Shown here piece after piece: positions 9,947 to 24,782 of a DNA stretch of 64,000 bases; positions within the stretch are counted from its first letter, which is position 1, and every line of letters starts with the position of its first letter. The notes beneath the pieces are model-generated. The model was not told where the DNA came from. It did not search any database and saw only the letters and a list, made by a program, of their open reading frames with translations. The stretch covers positions 868,001 to 932,000 of the forward strand of contig NZ_CABVIR010000001.1 in assembly GCF_902498065.1 (NCBI RefSeq), in the 5' to 3' direction. This DNA comes from Pseudomonas fluorescens (GTDB lineage: Bacteria > Pseudomonadota > Gammaproteobacteria > Pseudomonadales > Pseudomonadaceae). The position numbers and the translations under genes are program-made.

Positions 9947-10504
9947 TCAGGGAAAAGGCTCGGGCCGGGCGGGCGTCACCGGCAGGTTCGCCGCTTGCCA
10001 GGCATCCAGGCCGTCGCGATACCAATACAGAGTCTTATAGCCCATGGCGGCGGCGCGTTTGACCGCGTTCCAGCTCAGCCAGCAATCGGAGCGGCAGTAG
10101 AAGACCAGCGGTTGCGCAAGATCGCCCGCGGTCAATGTGTTCAGGTTACGCGCAAAATAGCCCTGCCAGTCGGGCGTCAGGTCGCCATCGCCGGTATTGG
10201 CCAGCCAATGACTGCCGGGCAGGTTCTCATGGGGCTGGTCTTCGATGAAGCGACCTTGCAGCCATTGACGGCGATAGACGTCGATCAAGATCGGGCGTGG
10301 TGTCTGGGAGAGCAGGGTTTGCAGGGCTGGCGTATCGATAATGGACGCGCCTTGCAGTTGATTCGGGGTCGGACTGCGATAAAGGCCGATGCGATAGCCT
10401 TCGGCGGAGAACAGCGGTGTGTCAGCGTGTGCGACACCCAGCAACAGGCTCAGCGATAACACGGCGAGGGAAGGGCGCAGCAGAACACGTCGGGCACGCG
10501 GCAT
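9947..10504 (-). CDS. PQQ-dependent catabolism-associated CXXCW rhodanese-like protein
   Basis: This 185-residue secreted protein has a signal peptide (MPRARRVLLRPSLAVLSLSLLLGVAHA) and a rhodanese-like fold ending in the diagnostic CRSDCW motif (LVFYCRSDCWLSWNAVKRA) around residues 139-144. This family is confined to PQQ-dehydrogenase neighbourhoods. The CxxC pair suggests a thiol or disulfide role in the periplasm, but the function is unknown. I chose the ATG at 10504 because it begins the signal peptide. A TACYAA-type motif lies about 80-95 bp upstream. The downstream agmR is on the same strand. Confidence 0.85.
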   Translation of the reverse strand: MPRARRVLLRPSLAVLSLSLLLGVAHADTPLFSAEGYRIGLYRSPTPNQLQGASIIDTPALQTLLSQTPRPILIDVYRRQWLQGRFIEDQPHENLPGSHWLANTGDGDLTPDWQGYFARNLNTLTAGDLAQPLVFYCRSDCWLSWNAVKRAAAMGYKTLYWYRDGLDAWQAANLPVTPARPEPFP

Positions 10505-17526: not shown

Positions 17527-19419
17527 TTACTTCTGTGCGGTCTGGTTATCCCAGCTCGGAATCTTGAACACCCAGAACGACCCGCCCTGAGCCACCGGTT
17601 TGGTCAGCTCGGCCATGTCGCCACCCCACAACGGCACCGCGCCGCCATAGCCGACAGTCACGCCGATATACTGCTCGCCGTCCTGTTCCCAGGTGACCGG
17701 CGGCGAGACGATGCCGCTGCCGGTCTGGAACTTCCACAGCTCCTTGCCGGTTTTCGCGTCGAAGGCCTTGAAGAAACCGTCGCCGGTACCGGTGAATACC
17801 AGGTTGCCTTTGGTCGCCAGCACGCCGGCCCACAGTGGCAGCGCCTCCTTGTGCTCCCACACCACTTTGCCCGTAGTCGGGTTCATCGCACGCAAGGTGC
17901 CGACGTGATCGTCGTACATGCGTTTGATGCGGAACCCCATGCCCAGATAGGCCGAACCTTTTTTGTAGTTGACCTCTTCGGTCCAGTATTCCTCTTTCCA
18001 TTGGTTGCCCGGAATGTAGAACAACCCGGTGTCCTGGCTGTAGGCCATCGGGTTCCAGTTTTTGCCGCCAAGGAACGGCGGCGAAACTTCAACCGGTTTG
18101 CCTTTGGTTTCGCCCGGCAGCGGTTTCGCCGGACGCTGGCCTTCGTTCTCGACCGGGCGCCCGGTCTTCAGGTCAATGTGGCTGGCCCAGGTGATGTTGT
18201 CGACGAAGGGGAAGGCGTTCTGCAATTTGCCGTTGTTGCGGTCGACCACGTAGAAGAAACCGTTACGGTCCGCGTGGCCGGTGGCCTTGACCGTTTTACC
18301 GTCCTTGTCCTTGTAGTCGAACAGCACCAGCTCGTTGTTGCCGGAGAAATCCCAGGCATCGTTCGGCGTGTGCTGGTAGAACCATTTCACTTCGCCGGTG
18401 CTTGGATCGACGCCGACCTGGCCCGAGGTATAGAGGCTGTCGTAATCGTGCGGGTTGCCGTCCTTGGAAGTGCGCGCCCAGGTGTTCCACGGACCAGGGT
18501 TGCCGGCGCCGACGATGATGGTGTTGGTTTCCGGATCGAAACTGGCGCTTTGCCAAGGGGCGCCTCCGCCGTGGCTCCAGGCTTCGACCTTGCCGGTTTC
18601 GGTGGTCGGATCGTTCGGCCAGGACGGCGCCTTGACGTCGCCGGTCGGGGTGCTGTCCTTGCCGTTCAAGCGGCCCATGTGGCCTTCGACAAAGGGGCGC
18701 ATCCACACTTCTTCGCCGGTGTCCGGGTCGCGGGCAAACAGTTGCCCGACCACGCCGAACTCATCGCCGGAACTGCCATGAATCAGCAGCACCTTGCCGC
18801 TGGTCTTGTCTTTGATCAGCACTGGCGCGCCGGTCATGGTGTAGCCGGCGGCGTGGTCGCCGAATTTCTTGTTCCACACCACTTTGCCGGTGTTCTTGTC
18901 CAGCGCGATCAGGCGTGCGTCGAGGGTACCGAAGTAGATCTTGTCGCCATAAATCGCCGCCCCGCGATTGACCACATCGCAGCACGGACGAATGTTGTCC
19001 GGCAGGCGATGGTTGTAAGTCCACAGGCGCTTGCCGGTCTTGGCGTCGAGGGCAAACACCCGCGAGTACGAACCGGTGACGTACACCACGCCGTCACTGA
19101 CGATGGCCTGGGATTCCTGGCCGCGCTGTTTCTCGTCGCCAAACGAATAGGACCAGGCGGGCGTCAGTTTGAATACGTTCTTGTCGTTGACCTTAGCGAG
19201 CGGGCTCCAGCGCTGGGCGTTGGTGCCCATGCCGTATTGCAGAACGTCCTTGGTGGTCAGGTGATCGTTGGCAATGTCTTCCCAGCTCACGTTGTGCGTC
19301 GGCTTCGCCGGTTCGGTCGCGGCTTGGCCGGCAGCGCTCAGGGACAGGCTGCTCACCAGCAAAAAGGCTTGCACGGCGAGGGTCAAAGGGGAAAGGGCGG
19401 GTAGCGATCTTATTGTCAT
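17527..19419 (-). CDS. pedE: PQQ-dependent alcohol dehydrogenase, calcium type (PedE/ExaA)
   Basis: This 630-residue periplasmic quinoprotein oxidises primary alcohols and aldehydes and passes electrons to a cytochrome c. It has a signal peptide ([33 protein letters not shown]) and the eight-bladed propeller with W-motifs. The vicinal cysteines are in RPCCDV, and the catalytic base is D357 in AWDFSGNNE. The residue two positions after it is Ser (S359), not Asp. In this family Asp there marks lanthanide enzymes, so this is the Ca-type enzyme. It is divergent from cytochrome pedF over 254 bp, which contain a TACYAA motif and a GGGAA-TTCCC palindrome. Confidence 0.95.
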
Positions 19420-19503
19420 GGTTGCAGTTCCCAGTGGAGGTTTTGGCCTGCACAGGGTGGTGCGTTCGACGGGGTGGCGAATACGGAAAAAGTCCCGCTG
19501 TTG

Positions 19504-19520
19504 CCGGGAAGATTTCCCAG
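19504..19520. promoter_or_regulatory. CCGGGAARATTTCCC palindrome upstream of pedE
   Basis: CCGGGAAGATTTCCCAG lies 85-101 bp before the pedE start. It is almost the same as the palindrome in front of pedH (22958-22974). It is a candidate shared operator or transcript-start element of the two alcohol dehydrogenases. Confidence 0.45.
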
Positions 19521-19555
19521 ACGGCACCTGATTTGGGTGTGCGCCACAAGCCCTA

Positions 19556-19673: not shown

Positions 19674-20135
19674 ATGACAACAAAACGCAACGCCTTGCTC
19701 GTTGCCGGACTGCTGGCCGGCTTTATCAGTGCGGGTTCGGTCTGGGCCCACGGCAACGTGGTGCCACAAGCCGTCGAAACCAAGGGACTGACCCCGATCA
19801 AGGACGCCGGCGTGCAGGTCGATGGTGATGGGTGGGCGGCGGTGAACCCTTACCGCACTTCCCCGGAACACGATAAAGCCATCGAGATCGGCTCATCGGC
19901 CTACAACCAGAACTGCGCGGCCTGTCATGGCCTGGAAGCCAAATCAGGCGGCATCGCCCCCGATTTGCGCATGCTCGATGTCGGCGAGGCCGGTGATGAA
20001 TGGTTCGTCGAACGGGTCCGCCACGGCGCCGTAAGGGACGGTCGGGTGTACATGCCGAAGATGGCCGATTACCTGAGTCAGGAAGCCCTGTGGGCAGTGC
20101 GCACTTACCTGGACAGCGTTCGCGTCGAGGAGTAA
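19674..20135 (+). CDS. pedF: cytochrome c550 PedF
   Basis: This 153-residue periplasmic c-type cytochrome has a signal peptide (to about residue 25, GSVWA), a single haem-binding CAACH (C81, C84, H85) and a likely distal Met in VYMPKM. It is the electron acceptor of PQQ alcohol dehydrogenases in Pseudomonas. It is divergent from pedE, and the binding-protein gene follows after 3 bp, so it heads a pedF-pedG-SoxYZ-hydrolase unit. TGAGGGC serves as ribosome site. Confidence 0.92.
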   Translation: MTTKRNALLVAGLLAGFISAGSVWAHGNVVPQAVETKGLTPIKDAGVQVDGDGWAAVNPYRTSPEHDKAIEIGSSAYNQNCAACHGLEAKSGGIAPDLRMLDVGEAGDEWFVERVRHGAVRDGRVYMPKMADYLSQEALWAVRTYLDSVRVEE

Positions 20136-20138
20136 TGC

Positions 20139-21017
20139 ATGCGCCTGCTCGCTCTGTTGATCAGTGCTGTGCTGCTGTGCTGCCAGGCGGTGCAGGCGCA
20201 GGTCCGTACCTATGACGAAATGATCGCCGCCGGGGAACTGAAGGTGGCGGTCTACAAAGACTTCGCCCCCTACAGTTTCGAAGACGCCGGCCAGCCCCGT
20301 GGCGTCGATGTCGAACTGGCCGAAGCCTTGGCCAAAGCCCTTGGCGTGCACTTGAAACTGATCTGGGCGCCCGCCGGCGAGAAGCTCGACGACGACCTGC
20401 GCGACTACATCTGGCGCGCCAGTCAGTTGCACGATCTGCAACTGGCCGACCTGATGATGCGTGTGCCCTACGACCAGGATTACGCGCGCAAGCGCAACGA
20501 ACTGGGTGAACTGGAAAACGGCCATGTGGTGATGTTCGGTCCGTACCAGAACGAACAATGGCAAGTCGCTTATGACCGCCGTCGGCTGGAGTCGGTAGGC
20601 AGTGTCGCGGTGTTCGAGCACCACCCGATCGGCGTCGAAGTGGACAGCGTGCCGTCGTTCTACCTGACCTCGGTATTCAACGGCATGCTCGCCGGAAAAA
20701 CCCGCCACTACCCCGGCGTGCCCCAGGCGTTCGCGGCCATGAAGGCCGGTGAAGTCGACGCGGTCATGGCGATGCGCGGCGAGATCGACTGGCAGGTTCA
20801 CGAGGCGGCGGACCCGCAACTCGCGCTGGCGGAAAACGCCTATCCGAACATGGGCAAGCAACTCTGGGAGATCGGCATGGCGGTGCACGAAAGCAATCGT
20901 CAATTGGCCTATGCCGTGGAAGAAACCCTGGAAACCCTGATCCGTGAAGGCTCGGTCAAAGCCATTTATGCCCGATACGGCCTGCGCTATGACGTCCCGG
21001 AGATGTATCAACAGTGA
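20139..21017 (+). CDS. pedG: quinoprotein dehydrogenase-associated periplasmic binding protein (PedG)
   Basis: This 292-residue type II solute-binding-protein fold has a signal peptide (MRLLALLISAVLLCCQAVQA) and the typical opening AGELKVAVYKDFAPYSFEDAGQPRGVDVELAEALAKALG. The ligand and partner are unknown. Members adjacent to XoxF/PQQ systems (XoxJ-like) have been proposed to assist enzyme maturation instead of transport, and the absence of an adjacent importer permease supports this. It sits 3 bp after pedF, and its stop overlaps the GTG start of the next gene by 4 bp. Confidence 0.85.
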   Translation: MRLLALLISAVLLCCQAVQAQVRTYDEMIAAGELKVAVYKDFAPYSFEDAGQPRGVDVELAEALAKALGVHLKLIWAPAGEKLDDDLRDYIWRASQLHDLQLADLMMRVPYDQDYARKRNELGELENGHVVMFGPYQNEQWQVAYDRRRLESVGSVAVFEHHPIGVEVDSVPSFYLTSVFNGMLAGKTRHYPGVPQAFAAMKAGEVDAVMAMRGEIDWQVHEAADPQLALAENAYPNMGKQLWEIGMAVHESNRQLAYAVEETLETLIREGSVKAIYARYGLRYDVPEMYQQ

Positions 21018-21775
21018 ACTGGAGCGCGTGTTGCCTGTTGGCCTGCTGGCTACCCTTGGCCGCGCACGCGGCAGCCATCGAACCGGGCAAAGACCCGGTA
21101 CCGTCGGTCATGTGGGCCTTCTATCACAAGCAAATGCTCGGCGATGCGCCGTTCGTGTTCGACGAGCGGGTCAAGCTGCTGGCGCCGCCGTTCGCCGAAG
21201 ATGCCCGGCAAGTGCCGCTGGAAATCGACGCCCGGGCGTTCAAGGGCGAGGTGGTGAAAATCCTTGCGTGGGCCGAACTCAATCCGTTGCCAAAAATTGT
21301 TGATTTTCAACCGCTGGATCGCGTGCTGCCGTGGCTGTCGATCCGCATCCGTATCGAACAAGCCACGCCGTTGCGTGCAGCGGTGCTGACCCGCGATGGG
21401 CTGTGGCATGTCGGCTCGACCCTGATCGATGCGGCGGGCGGTGGATGCACGGCGCCCAGCGTGGTGCGCAGTCAACCGGGCTGGGAAGAGCATATCGGCG
21501 AAGTGCTTGGCGGGCGTTATCCCCGTGGTGAATTCAGCCGCTTGCGCTTGCAGGTGGCGCACCCGATGGACAACGGCATGGTCGGCGGCATCCCGGAATT
21601 TTTCATTAACCATGCCGAGCTGCGCGATCACAACGATCAGTTGCTGGCCCGCCTCGAACTGTTTCCCGCCGTCAGCGAAAACCCCAGCCTGGCGTTCGAC
21701 ATCGAAGGGGCAGGGCAGACGCGCTTGTTGCTGCGCGACAACAGCGGCAACGAATTCGATGCGGCCATACCCTGA
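21014..21775 (+). CDS. quinoprotein-associated SoxYZ-like carrier protein
   Basis: This 253-residue secreted protein has a signal sequence (to about residue 20) and fuses a SoxY-like domain (about 60-150) to a SoxZ-like domain (about 155-253, AHPMDNGM then FINHAELRDHNDQLL). The SoxY-type swinging-arm cysteine appears as AGGGCTAP with C145. In SoxYZ of sulfur oxidisers this Cys carries the sulfur substrate covalently. Here the fusion sits among PQQ dehydrogenase genes with no other sox genes, so its cargo is unknown. The start codon is GTG, overlapping the upstream stop. Confidence 0.85.
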   Translation: MNWSACCLLACWLPLAAHAAAIEPGKDPVPSVMWAFYHKQMLGDAPFVFDERVKLLAPPFAEDARQVPLEIDARAFKGEVVKILAWAELNPLPKIVDFQPLDRVLPWLSIRIRIEQATPLRAAVLTRDGLWHVGSTLIDAAGGGCTAPSVVRSQPGWEEHIGEVLGGRYPRGEFSRLRLQVAHPMDNGMVGGIPEFFINHAELRDHNDQLLARLELFPAVSENPSLAFDIEGAGQTRLLLRDNSGNEFDAAIP

Positions 21776-21791
21776 CTCAAAGGAGCGCGCG

Positions 21792-22730
21792 ATGCGCTGG
21801 ATGCTGCTGTTGTTCATGAGCCTGAGCCTTCCTGCGCTGGCCGATCTCGACTATTCACTCACGCCCCGGCAGATCGCCGCAGACACTTGGCTGCTGGAGG
21901 GCAGCACCGACAATTTCGCCAAGGGCAACGGTGGCAACATCGTCAATACCGCGTTCATCGTCACCGAACGCGGTGTGGTGGTGATCGACACCGGGCCGTC
22001 CAGGCGATACGGCGAAGCGATGCGCAAAGCGATTGCCGCGACCACCGACAAACCGGTGATCCAGGTGCTGCTGACCCATCATCATCCCGATCATGTGCTG
22101 GGCAATCAGGCCTTCAGCGACGTGCCGATCGGCGCGTTGGGCGGTACAGCCGAGCTGTTGAAGCAGCAGGGCGACGCCATGGCCGAGAACATGTACCGAC
22201 TGGTGGGCGACTGGATGCGTGGCACCGAAGTGGTGTTGCCGACCGAGACGCTGACACCGGGCGTGCGAACTTTTGGGAATCACGATCTGCGCCTGCTGAG
22301 CCTGGGTGGGCACACGGGCGCTGATCTGGCTATTCTCGACCAGAAAACCGGCGTGCTGTTTGCCGGGGATCTGGTGTTTTATCAGCGGGCGCTGACCACG
22401 CCCAACAGTCCGGGATTGTCGGTGTGGCTGGCGGACATTGCGACGCTGCAAGGCTTGCCGTGGACGCTCATCGTCCCCGGCCACGGCCCGTTAGCCACGG
22501 ACGCAAAACCCTTCGAGCAAATGCGCGACTACCTTGGCTGGCTCGATCAACTGATGCGTGAGGGCGCCGCCAATGGTAGCGACATGGGCGAGATGATCCG
22601 CAGCCCGATTCCCGAACGGTTCGCCGGGATCAGCCTGAGTCGTTATGAGCTGATTCGCAGTGTCAGTCATCTCTACCCTCGCTACGAGCGCGAACAGATG
22701 ACCCGAGTCGACTCCGCCGCAAGCAAATGA
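21792..22730 (+). CDS. quinoprotein relay system zinc metallohydrolase (MBL fold)
   Basis: This 312-residue periplasmic metallo-beta-lactamase-fold protein has a signal peptide (MRWMLLLFMSLSLPALA), metal motif THHHPDH (residues 95-101), a third-ligand region SLGGHTGAD, the bridging Asp in FAGDLVF and the last His in VPGHGPL. It belongs to the family tied to the SoxYZ-like carrier and PQQ enzymes. It might hydrolyse a thioester or similar adduct from the carrier, but this is unproven. A strong ribosome site (AAAGGAG) precedes the ATG. It ends the pedF operon. Confidence 0.87.
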   Translation: MRWMLLLFMSLSLPALADLDYSLTPRQIAADTWLLEGSTDNFAKGNGGNIVNTAFIVTERGVVVIDTGPSRRYGEAMRKAIAATTDKPVIQVLLTHHHPDHVLGNQAFSDVPIGALGGTAELLKQQGDAMAENMYRLVGDWMRGTEVVLPTETLTPGVRTFGNHDLRLLSLGGHTGADLAILDQKTGVLFAGDLVFYQRALTTPNSPGLSVWLADIATLQGLPWTLIVPGHGPLATDAKPFEQMRDYLGWLDQLMREGAANGSDMGEMIRSPIPERFAGISLSRYELIRSVSHLYPRYEREQMTRVDSAASK

Positions 22731-23003: not shown

Positions 23004-24782
23004 ATGACCCAACCCGCACGTCGCCAACCCTTCGTCTTGAGCCTGTTGCTCAGTGCCATGCTGTTGTCCGGCACGGCATTGGCCGCCGTCACCGACCAGG
23101 ACATTCTCCAGGACCCCAAGAACCCGGAGCAGATCGTCACCAACGGTCTGGGCGTCCAGGGTCAGCGCTACAGCCCGCTCGACACCCTCAACGTCAACAA
23201 CGTGAAGGACTTGCGGCCGGTCTGGGCCTTCTCCTTCGGCGGCGAAAAACAACGCGGTCAGCAAGCACAGCCGATGATCAAGGACGGCGTGATGTACATG
23301 ACCGGTTCTTACTCGCGGGTGTTCGCGGTGGACGCGCGCACCGGCAAGAAGCTCTGGCAATACGATGCCCGCCTGCCCGATGACATCCGCCCGTGCTGCG
23401 ACGTGATCAACCGGGGCGTGGCGCTGTACGGCGACCTCGTGTTCTTCGGCACCCTTGACGCCAAACTCGTGGCCCTGAACAAAGACACCGGCAAAGTGGT
23501 GTGGAGCAAGAAAGTCGCCGACCACAAGGAAGGCTATTCCATCAGCGCAGCGCCGTTGGTGATCAACGGCAAGCTGATTACCGGTGTGGCCGGTGGCGAG
23601 TTCGGGGTGGTCGGCAAGATCGAAGCCTATGACCCGAAAAACGGCGACTTGCTGTGGAGTCGCCCGACCGTCGAAGGCCACATGGGCTATGTCTACAAGG
23701 ACGGGAAAGCGGTAGAGAACGGTATTTCCGGTGGCGAAGCCGGCAAGACCTGGCCGGGCGATCTGTGGAAAACCGGCGGCGCGGCACCTTGGCTCGGCGG
23801 TTACTACGACCCGGAAACCAATCTGCTGCTGTTCGGCACCGGCAACCCGGCGCCGTGGAACTCGCACCTGCGTCCTGGCGACAACCTTTATTCATCCTCG
23901 CGTCTGGCGCTGAACCCGGACGACGGCACGATCAAATGGCACTTCCAGAGCACGCCCCACGACGGCTGGGACTATGACGGCGTGAACGAGTTGGTCTCGT
24001 TCAACTACACCGAAGGCGGTAAAGAAATCAAAGCCGCCGCGACCGCGGACCGTAACGGTTTCTTCTATGTGCTGGACCGCACCAACGGCAAATTCATTCG
24101 TGGCTTCCCGTTCGTGGACAAGATCACCTGGGCCACCGGGCTGGATAAAGACGGCCGGCCGATCTACAACGAGGCCAGCCGTCCGGGCGCACCGGGCACC
24201 GAAGCCAAGGGCAGTTCGGTGTTCGTCGCCCCGGCGTTCCTCGGCGCGAAAAACTGGATGCCGATGGCCTATAACAAGGACACCGGGTTGTTCTACGTAC
24301 CGTCCAACGAGTGGGGCATGGACATCTGGAACGAAGGCATCGCCTACAAGAAAGGCGCGGCGTTCCTTGGTGCCGGTTTCACCATCAAACCGTTGAACGA
24401 AGACTACATCGGCGTGCTGCGCGCCATCGACCCGAAAACCGGCAAGGAAGTCTGGCGCCACAAGAACTTCGCGCCGTTGTGGGGCGGGGTGCTGACCACC
24501 AAAGGCAACCTGGTGTTCACCGGCACGCCGGAAGGTTTCCTCCAGGCGTTCAACGCCAAGACCGGCGAGAAAGTCTGGGAATTCCAGACCGGCTCTGGCG
24601 TACTGGGTTCACCCGTGACCTGGGAAATGGACGGCGAGCAGTACGTCTCGGTGCTGTCCGGTTGGGGTGGCGCTGTTCCGCTGTGGGGCGGTGAAGTGGC
24701 CAAGCGCATCAAGGACTTCAACCAGGGCGGCATGCTCTGGACCTTCAAGTTGCCAAAAGACCTCGTGGTGGCCAAGCACTAA
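23004..24782 (+). CDS. pedH: PQQ-dependent alcohol dehydrogenase, lanthanide type (PedH)
   Basis: This 592-residue periplasmic quinoprotein has a signal peptide (to about residue 27, GTALA), vicinal RPCCDV cysteines and the propeller W-motifs. The active-site segment is GWDYDGVNE, with catalytic D323 and a second Asp at D325. The extra Asp two residues after the catalytic one is the established marker of lanthanide-dependent enzymes such as XoxF and P. putida PedH. Compared with PedE it is about 38 residues shorter and lacks part of the loop before the catalytic Asp. It forms its own transcription unit behind a TACYAA motif and a palindrome. Confidence 0.96.

Follow-up and report, generated by a model that had tools for sequence, protein, structure and literature searches.

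A fused SoxYZ-like carrier and its metallo-β-lactamase-fold partner are retained with quinoprotein alcohol dehydrogenases in Pseudomonadota, and the metal site of the partner is altered in one clade

Two adjacent genes, for a fused SoxY-SoxZ-like carrier and a metallo-β-lactamase (MBL)-fold protein, are the subject of this analysis. They lie in a 64,000 nt stretch of Pseudomonas fluorescens DNA (assembly GCF_902498065.1, contig NZ_CABVIR010000001.1, positions 868,001 to 932,000 of the forward strand), which is referred to here in its entirety as the window and to which the coordinates below apply unless otherwise indicated. The carrier (253 aa, GTG start) is encoded at 21014..21775 on the plus strand, and the MBL-fold protein, named 'quinoprotein relay system zinc metallohydrolase 1' by its family profile (TIGR04558) and hereafter called hydrolase 1, at 21792..22730 on the same strand. 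The pair is situated between two upstream genes, pedF and pedG, and the lanthanide-type dehydrogenase gene pedH, all on the plus strand. pedF (19674..20135; TIGR04494) encodes cytochrome c-550, pedG (20139..21017; SBP_bac_3) a periplasmic binding protein, and pedH (23004..24782; TIGR03075) a pyrroloquinoline quinone (PQQ)-dependent alcohol dehydrogenase (ADH). The GTG of the carrier (21014-21016) overlaps the TGA stop codon of pedG (21015-21017) as GTGA, so that translational coupling of the two genes is plausible. The hydrolase coding sequence begins at the ATG at 21792, 16 bases past the carrier stop codon, with AAGGAG at 21780-21785.

The carrier scored 198.5 bits against TIGR04557 (fuse_rel_SoxYZ; quinoprotein dehydrogenase-associated SoxYZ-like carrier; cut-off 140), covering positions 1-226 of the 226 in the profile, and was matched by both the SoxY and the SoxZ families of Pfam. 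By profile it is not a true SoxY (43.1 of the 125 bits required) or SoxZ (30.2 of 76). Its residue C145, in the motif GGGCTAP, aligns to the arm cysteine of the solved SoxY chain 4uwq (E 1.3e-10) and, weakly, to that of 2nnc (E 0.013). It is apparent that this cysteine is invariant: it was kept in 53/53 carriers of a first alignment, the window's included, in all 163 rows (161 distinct; 80 from Pseudomonas) of a larger alignment, to which the weak carrier matches in loci L190 and L193 do not belong, and in 13/13 plasmid carriers (the 163 rows already include two of these plasmid loci). The N-terminus, judged by eye, resembles a signal peptide ending in AHA, and the protein is probably secreted to the periplasm. 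As three of its four cysteines fall within this putative signal peptide, the mature carrier would hold C145 alone.

An AlphaFold2 model of the carrier, built from 16 sequences, has a predicted local distance difference test score (pLDDT) of 86.7 and consists of two β-sandwiches; the ten-residue blocks at 141-160 have mean pLDDT values of 54 (the block containing C145) and 67. SoxYZ is made of two subunits, and the arm cysteine of SoxY lies at its free C-terminal end. The domain layout of the model suggests that C145 is situated instead in a loop between the domains. The best Foldseek matches of the model were the SoxY chains of 4uwq and 2ox5; unrelated antibody chains were also matched, because the carrier fold is immunoglobulin-like.

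The hydrolase matched TIGR04558 over its full length, with 425.6 bits (cut-off 300). It contains THHHPDH together with further His, Asp and His positions, so that all seven metal-site positions are intact; these are H98, H100, D102, H103, H176, D195 and H233 when counted from codon 21786 (two less when numbered from the ATG), and their roles are presumably those of the general MBL pattern. The readout of these positions, HHDHHDH, was the same in 80/80 Pseudomonas loci, and zinc binding and hydrolysis are plausible predictions for the protein in that genus. The AlphaFold2 model (pLDDT 93.1) is nearest among solved folds to 8d2z (Z 31.3, root-mean-square deviation 2.1, 269 residues aligned) and the chlorothalonil dehalogenase 6uxu (Z 29.8), both of which aligned as far as residue 301 of the model, followed by B2 and B1 metallo-β-lactamases; such likeness says nothing about function. 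Glyoxalase II and the B1/B2 metallo-β-lactamases share the MBL fold and the ligand pattern with the hydrolase, but it falls far below the cut-offs of those families, and with 33.9 bits against the GloB profile (TIGR03413; cut-off 200.8) it is not a glyoxalase II. Neither glyoxalase II nor persulfide dioxygenase was among the best 50 rows listed in either fold comparison, which rules out neither. An earlier note on this DNA, made from the letters alone, had described a fused carrier with an arm cysteine, coupled to a binding protein gene and followed by an MBL-fold hydrolase with an intact metal motif, the whole behind pedF, and this description is confirmed here.

The window represents an ordinary Pseudomonas ped cluster, the arrangement of which is already known. 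According to the available part of PMC12997753, the ped cluster of Pseudomonas putida KT2440 has the same families in the order pedF-pedG-carrier-hydrolase-pedH, with PP_2677 and PP_2678 carrying the same names; no difference from the window was seen when the published listing was compared without alignment. That source also states that PP_2677, PP_2678 and the rhodanese-domain protein PP_2666 are absent from P. aeruginosa, whereas methylotrophs, and other Proteobacteria that possess lanthanide- and PQQ-dependent ADHs, have conserved them. The same genes are listed in another Pseudomonas in a portion of PMC12875217, and the accessible text of a lanthanum (La) proteome study names PedE, PedH and PP_2673 of the ped cluster as changed (PMC7188995). 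Fused SoxYZ-S2/S4 proteins, with soxH, have been described beside PQQ-ADH or xoxF genes in sulfide-oxidising symbionts, in the sections of PMC11237559 that were available; the fused carrier, the SoxH-like partner and the dehydrogenase neighbour are as in the window, but the symbionts encode SoxB and the genome containing the window has no SoxB match. As the genes are named and discussed in those portions of PMC12997753 and PMC11237559, the gene set itself cannot be claimed as new. The statement in the earlier note that the biochemistry is not established was fair, in that no measured function for the pair was found in the open-licence literature. What is newly found here are the figures for genome-wide co-retention, the invariant arm cysteine in 161 distinct carriers, and the clade with an altered hydrolase.

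Co-retention was determined in a sample of 398 Pseudomonadota genomes. The TIGR04557 cut-off was passed in 65, of which 44 contain an uninterrupted fused frame; the other 21, in which a stop interrupts the match, were assumed to represent neighbouring soxY and soxZ genes and set aside. For each genome up to five candidates for hydrolase 1, six for hydrolase 2 and three for PQQ-ADH were scored, at E limits of 1e-60, 1e-60 and 1e-120, respectively. Hydrolase 1 exceeded its cut-off in 16/398 genomes and hydrolase 2 in 31/398, with two genomes holding both. One or other hydrolase is thus present in 45 genomes, which are all 44 of the fused-carrier genomes and one of the 354 others (G364). All 16 hydrolase-1 matches were situated 80-174 bases from a carrier match. 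For hydrolase 2, 26 of the 30 matches in carrier genomes were at most 500 bases away from a carrier match, and of the remaining four, three were equally near to a PQQ-ADH match. PQQ-ADHs themselves were found in 95/398 genomes, that is in 44/44 with the fused carrier and 51/354 without it (Fisher p 3e-32, a value that ignores kinship; 24 genera). Within this sample, therefore, the pairing of the carrier with a hydrolase family and a PQQ-ADH is obligate. The single genome with hydrolase 2 but no fused carrier, both by cut-off, holds it at G364:C8:202149-202994.

In a contig-wide search only Pseudomonas was represented among the best 80 matches, and the breadth of the distribution rests on the sampled genomes and on named plasmids. 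Plasmid pPAN1 of Paracoccus pantotrophus, for example, bears the carrier, hydrolase 1 and pedF. No phage-borne copy was matched in a phage collection at E 0.001, the viral contig collection being outside the scan; the occurrence of SoxYZ fusions in viral genomes is mentioned in the portion of PMC11237559 consulted.

The genome containing the window was searched for SoxB, SoxA and SoxC. SoxB had no match in the whole genome, the SoxC model gave only 32.8 and 22.1 bits, its cut-off being 420, and SoxA had no match, a result to be read with the fact that its model matched no control genome either. The claim of the earlier note that SoxAX, SoxB and SoxCD genes are absent is thus upheld for SoxB and SoxC, the SoxA search being without a control. 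Among the 44 fused-carrier genomes SoxB was found in 20 and not found in 24. Because all 44 hold a PQQ-ADH and 24 lack a SoxB match, the carrier-hydrolase unit is tied to quinoproteins and not to the Sox pathway, as that note had supposed in proposing a relay independent of Sox. The window carrier has in common with the SoxYZ-SoxB system its SoxY and SoxZ domains and its arm cysteine; it differs in being one chain, in the predicted interdomain position of the cysteine, and in the absence of a SoxB match from its genome. The MBL-fold protein may stand in for SoxB.

The metal site of hydrolase 1 is not the same in all lineages. Among 179 aligned hydrolase rows, 137 read HHDHHDH, 25 read NHDYHGH and 17 read otherwise; two of these 17 are truncated and the rest are more altered proteins, mostly from matches under the TIGR04558 cut-off. 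NHDYHGH represents a change in three metal ligands relative to HHDHHDH, and it is uniform in a clade consisting of Burkholderiales-like and Azospirillum sequences. The hydrolase-1 cut-off was passed in 20/110 genomes of family f11, all 20 of which read NHDYHGH (loci L258-L276, and G246 through L087). The same readout was observed in G328 (family f20), in G400 (f90) and in 5/5 Azospirillum plasmid records; the plasmid loci examined numbered 13 (of 22 records found), the other eight being intact. In the 398-genome sample, 4 of the 16 hydrolase-1 genes are altered (G019, G231, G246 and G328). The altered loci are L073, L074, L075, L087, L178, L258-L276, L277 and L299-L302. Kinship labels and gene content suggest that the G-numbered genomes of the clade are Burkholderiales. 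Annotated Azospirillum records still name the altered protein 'zinc metallohydrolase 1'.

In the tree the 25 altered rows (one a duplicate and one from Azospirillum) are joined in a single change, with support of 93/94 and in 94% of 200 bootstrap trees; this is below the level required, and a single origin of the altered site, although suggested, is not firm. After removal of L267, which duplicates L075, the three replacements are invariant in the 24 distinct altered rows at pairwise identities of 39-87%. In this clade the carrier is still adjacent and retains its arm cysteine, and the gene order persists; dN/dS (the ratio of non-synonymous to synonymous substitution rates) for the altered hydrolase between Azospirillum species ranged from 0.07 to 0.45. 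Taken together, these observations argue that the altered hydrolases are not in random decay. In addition, the aligned region has two cysteines, and no more, in 23/23 distinct burkholderial copies. They stand at positions 50 and 140, which in intact relatives are mostly occupied by Gly and by Val, Leu or Met; the pair was found in 0/5 Azospirillum copies. No mention of the NHDYHGH clade or of its gained cysteine pair was found in the open-licence literature, in a search only partly aimed there. With three of the metal ligands replaced throughout a clade, it is difficult to regard zinc hydrolysis as the step by which cargo is released in every lineage: the proposal of the earlier note that the hydrolase releases the cargo is plausible in Pseudomonas and hardly general. 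At six other loci (L184, L188, L191, L192, L194 and L195) two nearby MBL-fold frames were observed, one with HxHPDH and the other altered at the metal site, and no carrier match was present in the short locus.

A rhodanese-like PQQ-associated CXXCW protein (TIGR03865, PQQ_CXXCW), probably a third member of the module, is encoded at 9947..10504 on the minus strand; the earlier note had suggested that it might service the carrier cysteine. Such a gene was present in 35/50 carrier neighbourhoods, and the CXXCW motif was invariant in 36/36 rows. PedH has an Asp in the motif GWDYDGVN, which we take to indicate the lanthanide type, and an adjacent cysteine pair in RPCCDVIN; a Cys-Cys pair was found at that position in every aligned ADH except one row that is gapped there. 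These features bear on a second explanation, in which the carrier, its MBL partner and the CXXCW protein form or repair the Cys-Cys bond of the ADH, or assist in the insertion of PQQ and metal, alongside the MxaJ/XoxJ-like PedG. The association with the dehydrogenase and with proteins of the PedG or MoxJ type, the invariant CXXCW motif, the near-universal cysteine pair and the thiol pair gained in burkholderial partners are all consistent with such a role in maturation or redox upkeep, which is also proposed in section 15 of PMC12997753, as far as that text was available. However, the ADHs of carrier-less genomes bear the same cysteine pair, the same source indicates that P. aeruginosa lacks these genes and yet has ExaA with a disulfide, and a dinuclear hydrolase-type site would have no obvious part in disulfide formation. 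We regard this explanation as doubtful. Because carrier-less ADHs share it, the cysteine pair was also rejected as an account of why the module exists. The altered hydrolase was likewise judged not to follow from loss of the CXXCW gene, as none of five intact type-1 loci from the burkholderial order has that gene nearby either (0/5). No additional thioredoxin-type partner was evident in the altered clade among clusters present at ≥4/19 loci, as judged by sequence ends and lengths.

The carrier-hydrolase pair accompanies both PedH-like and XoxF-like dehydrogenases, as we take them to be from their motifs. A lanthanide-specific partnership was considered and rejected: among the ADHs fetched, a lanthanide type was present in 42/43 carrier genomes but also in 21/23 carrier-less ones. 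The carrier-less set consisted of 30 genes, mostly frames under 700 aa, from 23 of 51 genomes, the other 28 being passed over because the frames listed were longer (quinohaemoprotein-like by length) or none was listed; the set for carrier genomes comprised ADHs from the neighbourhoods retrieved, with 30 selected in addition, and not all of their ADHs. In G054 (L082), of the same genus, the carrier and hydrolase stand beside a Ser-type (calcium-type) ADH, and the ADHs fetched from that genome were of the Ser or Thr type only, none being of the lanthanide type. In the window a calcium-type ADH, PedE, is encoded at 17527..19527 on the minus strand, with an uncertain start site; its TIGR03075 match, G000:C1:885641-887299 minus, corresponds to window positions 17641-19299. 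The plus-strand frame opposite pedE is spurious and matched nothing in the profile scan.

As the pair accompanies enzymes of both kinds, its cargo is probably not the product of the alcohol. This bears on the relay suggested in the earlier note, where an aldehyde, formyl or acyl group, or else a sulfur adduct, is carried on the cysteine and released by the hydrolase. A carbon cargo made by the dehydrogenase would be bound to C145 as a thiohemiacetal or thioester, and the hydrolase would free the acid as glyoxalase II does. The intact MBL site and the weak GloB similarity are compatible with a cargo of that kind, as are S-formylglutathione hydrolase genes in 12 clustered neighbourhoods and the preference for carbon over sulfur metabolism expressed in the consulted portion of PMC11237559. 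The fghA genes, though, suggest that a glutathione route already exists at those loci, one entire clade has partners with a different metal site, and the SoxYZ relatives carry sulfur, as is established for Sox. Nothing clearly pointed to a carbon cargo, and we consider it improbable. Response regulators and sensor kinases recurred among the neighbours, as would be expected if the state of the carrier cysteine signalled sulfur or aldehyde stress to the ped two-component systems and was reset by the hydrolase; no one regulator family was linked throughout, however, and these proteins play no part in ped regulation as set out in the part of PMC12997753 available, and the likelihood of such a sensor is accordingly put lower still.

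Two further neighbours were observed. A secreted-looking protein of about 113-120 aa with about four cysteines (FACM...CACS motif), at L056:9241-9582 and 16 other loci, adjoins second-type carriers and is usually oriented towards them; it had no NCBIfam or Pfam match, one member having been tried per library. At L042, L044-L046, L048, L049, L051 and L053 an ABC transporter weakly similar to sulfonate/nitrate importers (SsuA, SsuC) was found near the carrier, and is a possible link to sulfur.

The descent of the carrier from SoxYZ, the rhodanese-like neighbour and the thiol-gaining branch of partners suggest sulfur or thiol chemistry in preference to acyl transfer. The explanation that we put forward, tentatively and at somewhat less than even likelihood, is that the carrier and hydrolase carry and discharge sulfur species harmful to the quinoprotein, the cargo, the reaction and the protective benefit being deduced. 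The two proteins would form a periplasmic servicing unit for soluble PQQ-ADHs. Sulfite, thiosulfate or a persulfide would become covalently bound to the carrier through C145 of its mobile arm. The zinc-type MBL protein would then clear the arm hydrolytically, much like SoxB, in Pseudomonas and the majority of other lineages; the species so removed could then neither add to the electrophilic quinone nor disturb the adjacent cysteine pair of the enzyme. The CXXCW protein would probably pass sulfur to the arm, or reduce it, and the Azospirillum and Burkholderiales-like partners with changed ligands presumably clear the arm differently or merely bind it. A more specific version, with a dedicated sulfur-clearing system that has two interchangeable discharge chemistries, zinc hydrolysis and thiol exchange by the rebuilt NHDYHGH former hydrolase with its burkholderial cysteine pair, is unlikely. 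Related ideas have been published: in the accessible sections, PMC12997753 offers disulfide or cofactor upkeep and protection of PQQ from sulfur nucleophiles, and PMC11237559 proposes that SoxYZ fusions protect methanol dehydrogenase from thiosulfate and cites a report of the release of sulfate from SoxY by SoxH in Sulfurimonas CVO, without SoxB.

Several observations weigh against sulfur clearance. The three metal ligands of hydrolase 1 are changed across an entire clade; a cargo on C145 is deduced from the sequence, none having been observed; SoxB is, after all, present in 20 of the 44 carrier genomes; and the 21 of 23 examined carrier-less genomes with a lanthanide-type ADH do without the unit. 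The CXXCW gene was found in 0/24 neighbourhoods of the burkholderial order (0/15, 0/4 and 0/5). In the portion of PMC11237559 available, SoxYZ fusions are regarded as unlikely to act directly in sulfur metabolism, a carbon role being favoured, and release of sulfate by SoxH as improbable in hosts bearing SoxB. Finally, section 15 of PMC12997753, as accessible, reports a minimal phenotype for random barcode transposon-site sequencing (RB-TnSeq) mutants on short-chain alcohols without rare earths. The last point would also suit a remnant module without present function, hitch-hiking with pedH, which is hardly credible in view of the invariant arm cysteine, the co-retention with a hydrolase in 44/44 genomes, and dN/dS values of 0.05-0.21 for carrier and hydrolase alike (eight Pseudomonas comparisons each), from which both genes appear to be under purifying selection in that genus.

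These genes accompany many of the alcohol and methanol dehydrogenases that are studied in rare-earth biology and biotechnology. The altered clade, in which a carrier that keeps its cysteine stands beside a partner with a changed metal site, constitutes a natural test and renders the question of function more testable; the database name 'zinc metallohydrolase' is doubtful for the partners in that clade. If sulfur is indeed cleared in the vicinity of the quinoprotein, the pair would set when such enzymes can work in sulfur-rich settings.

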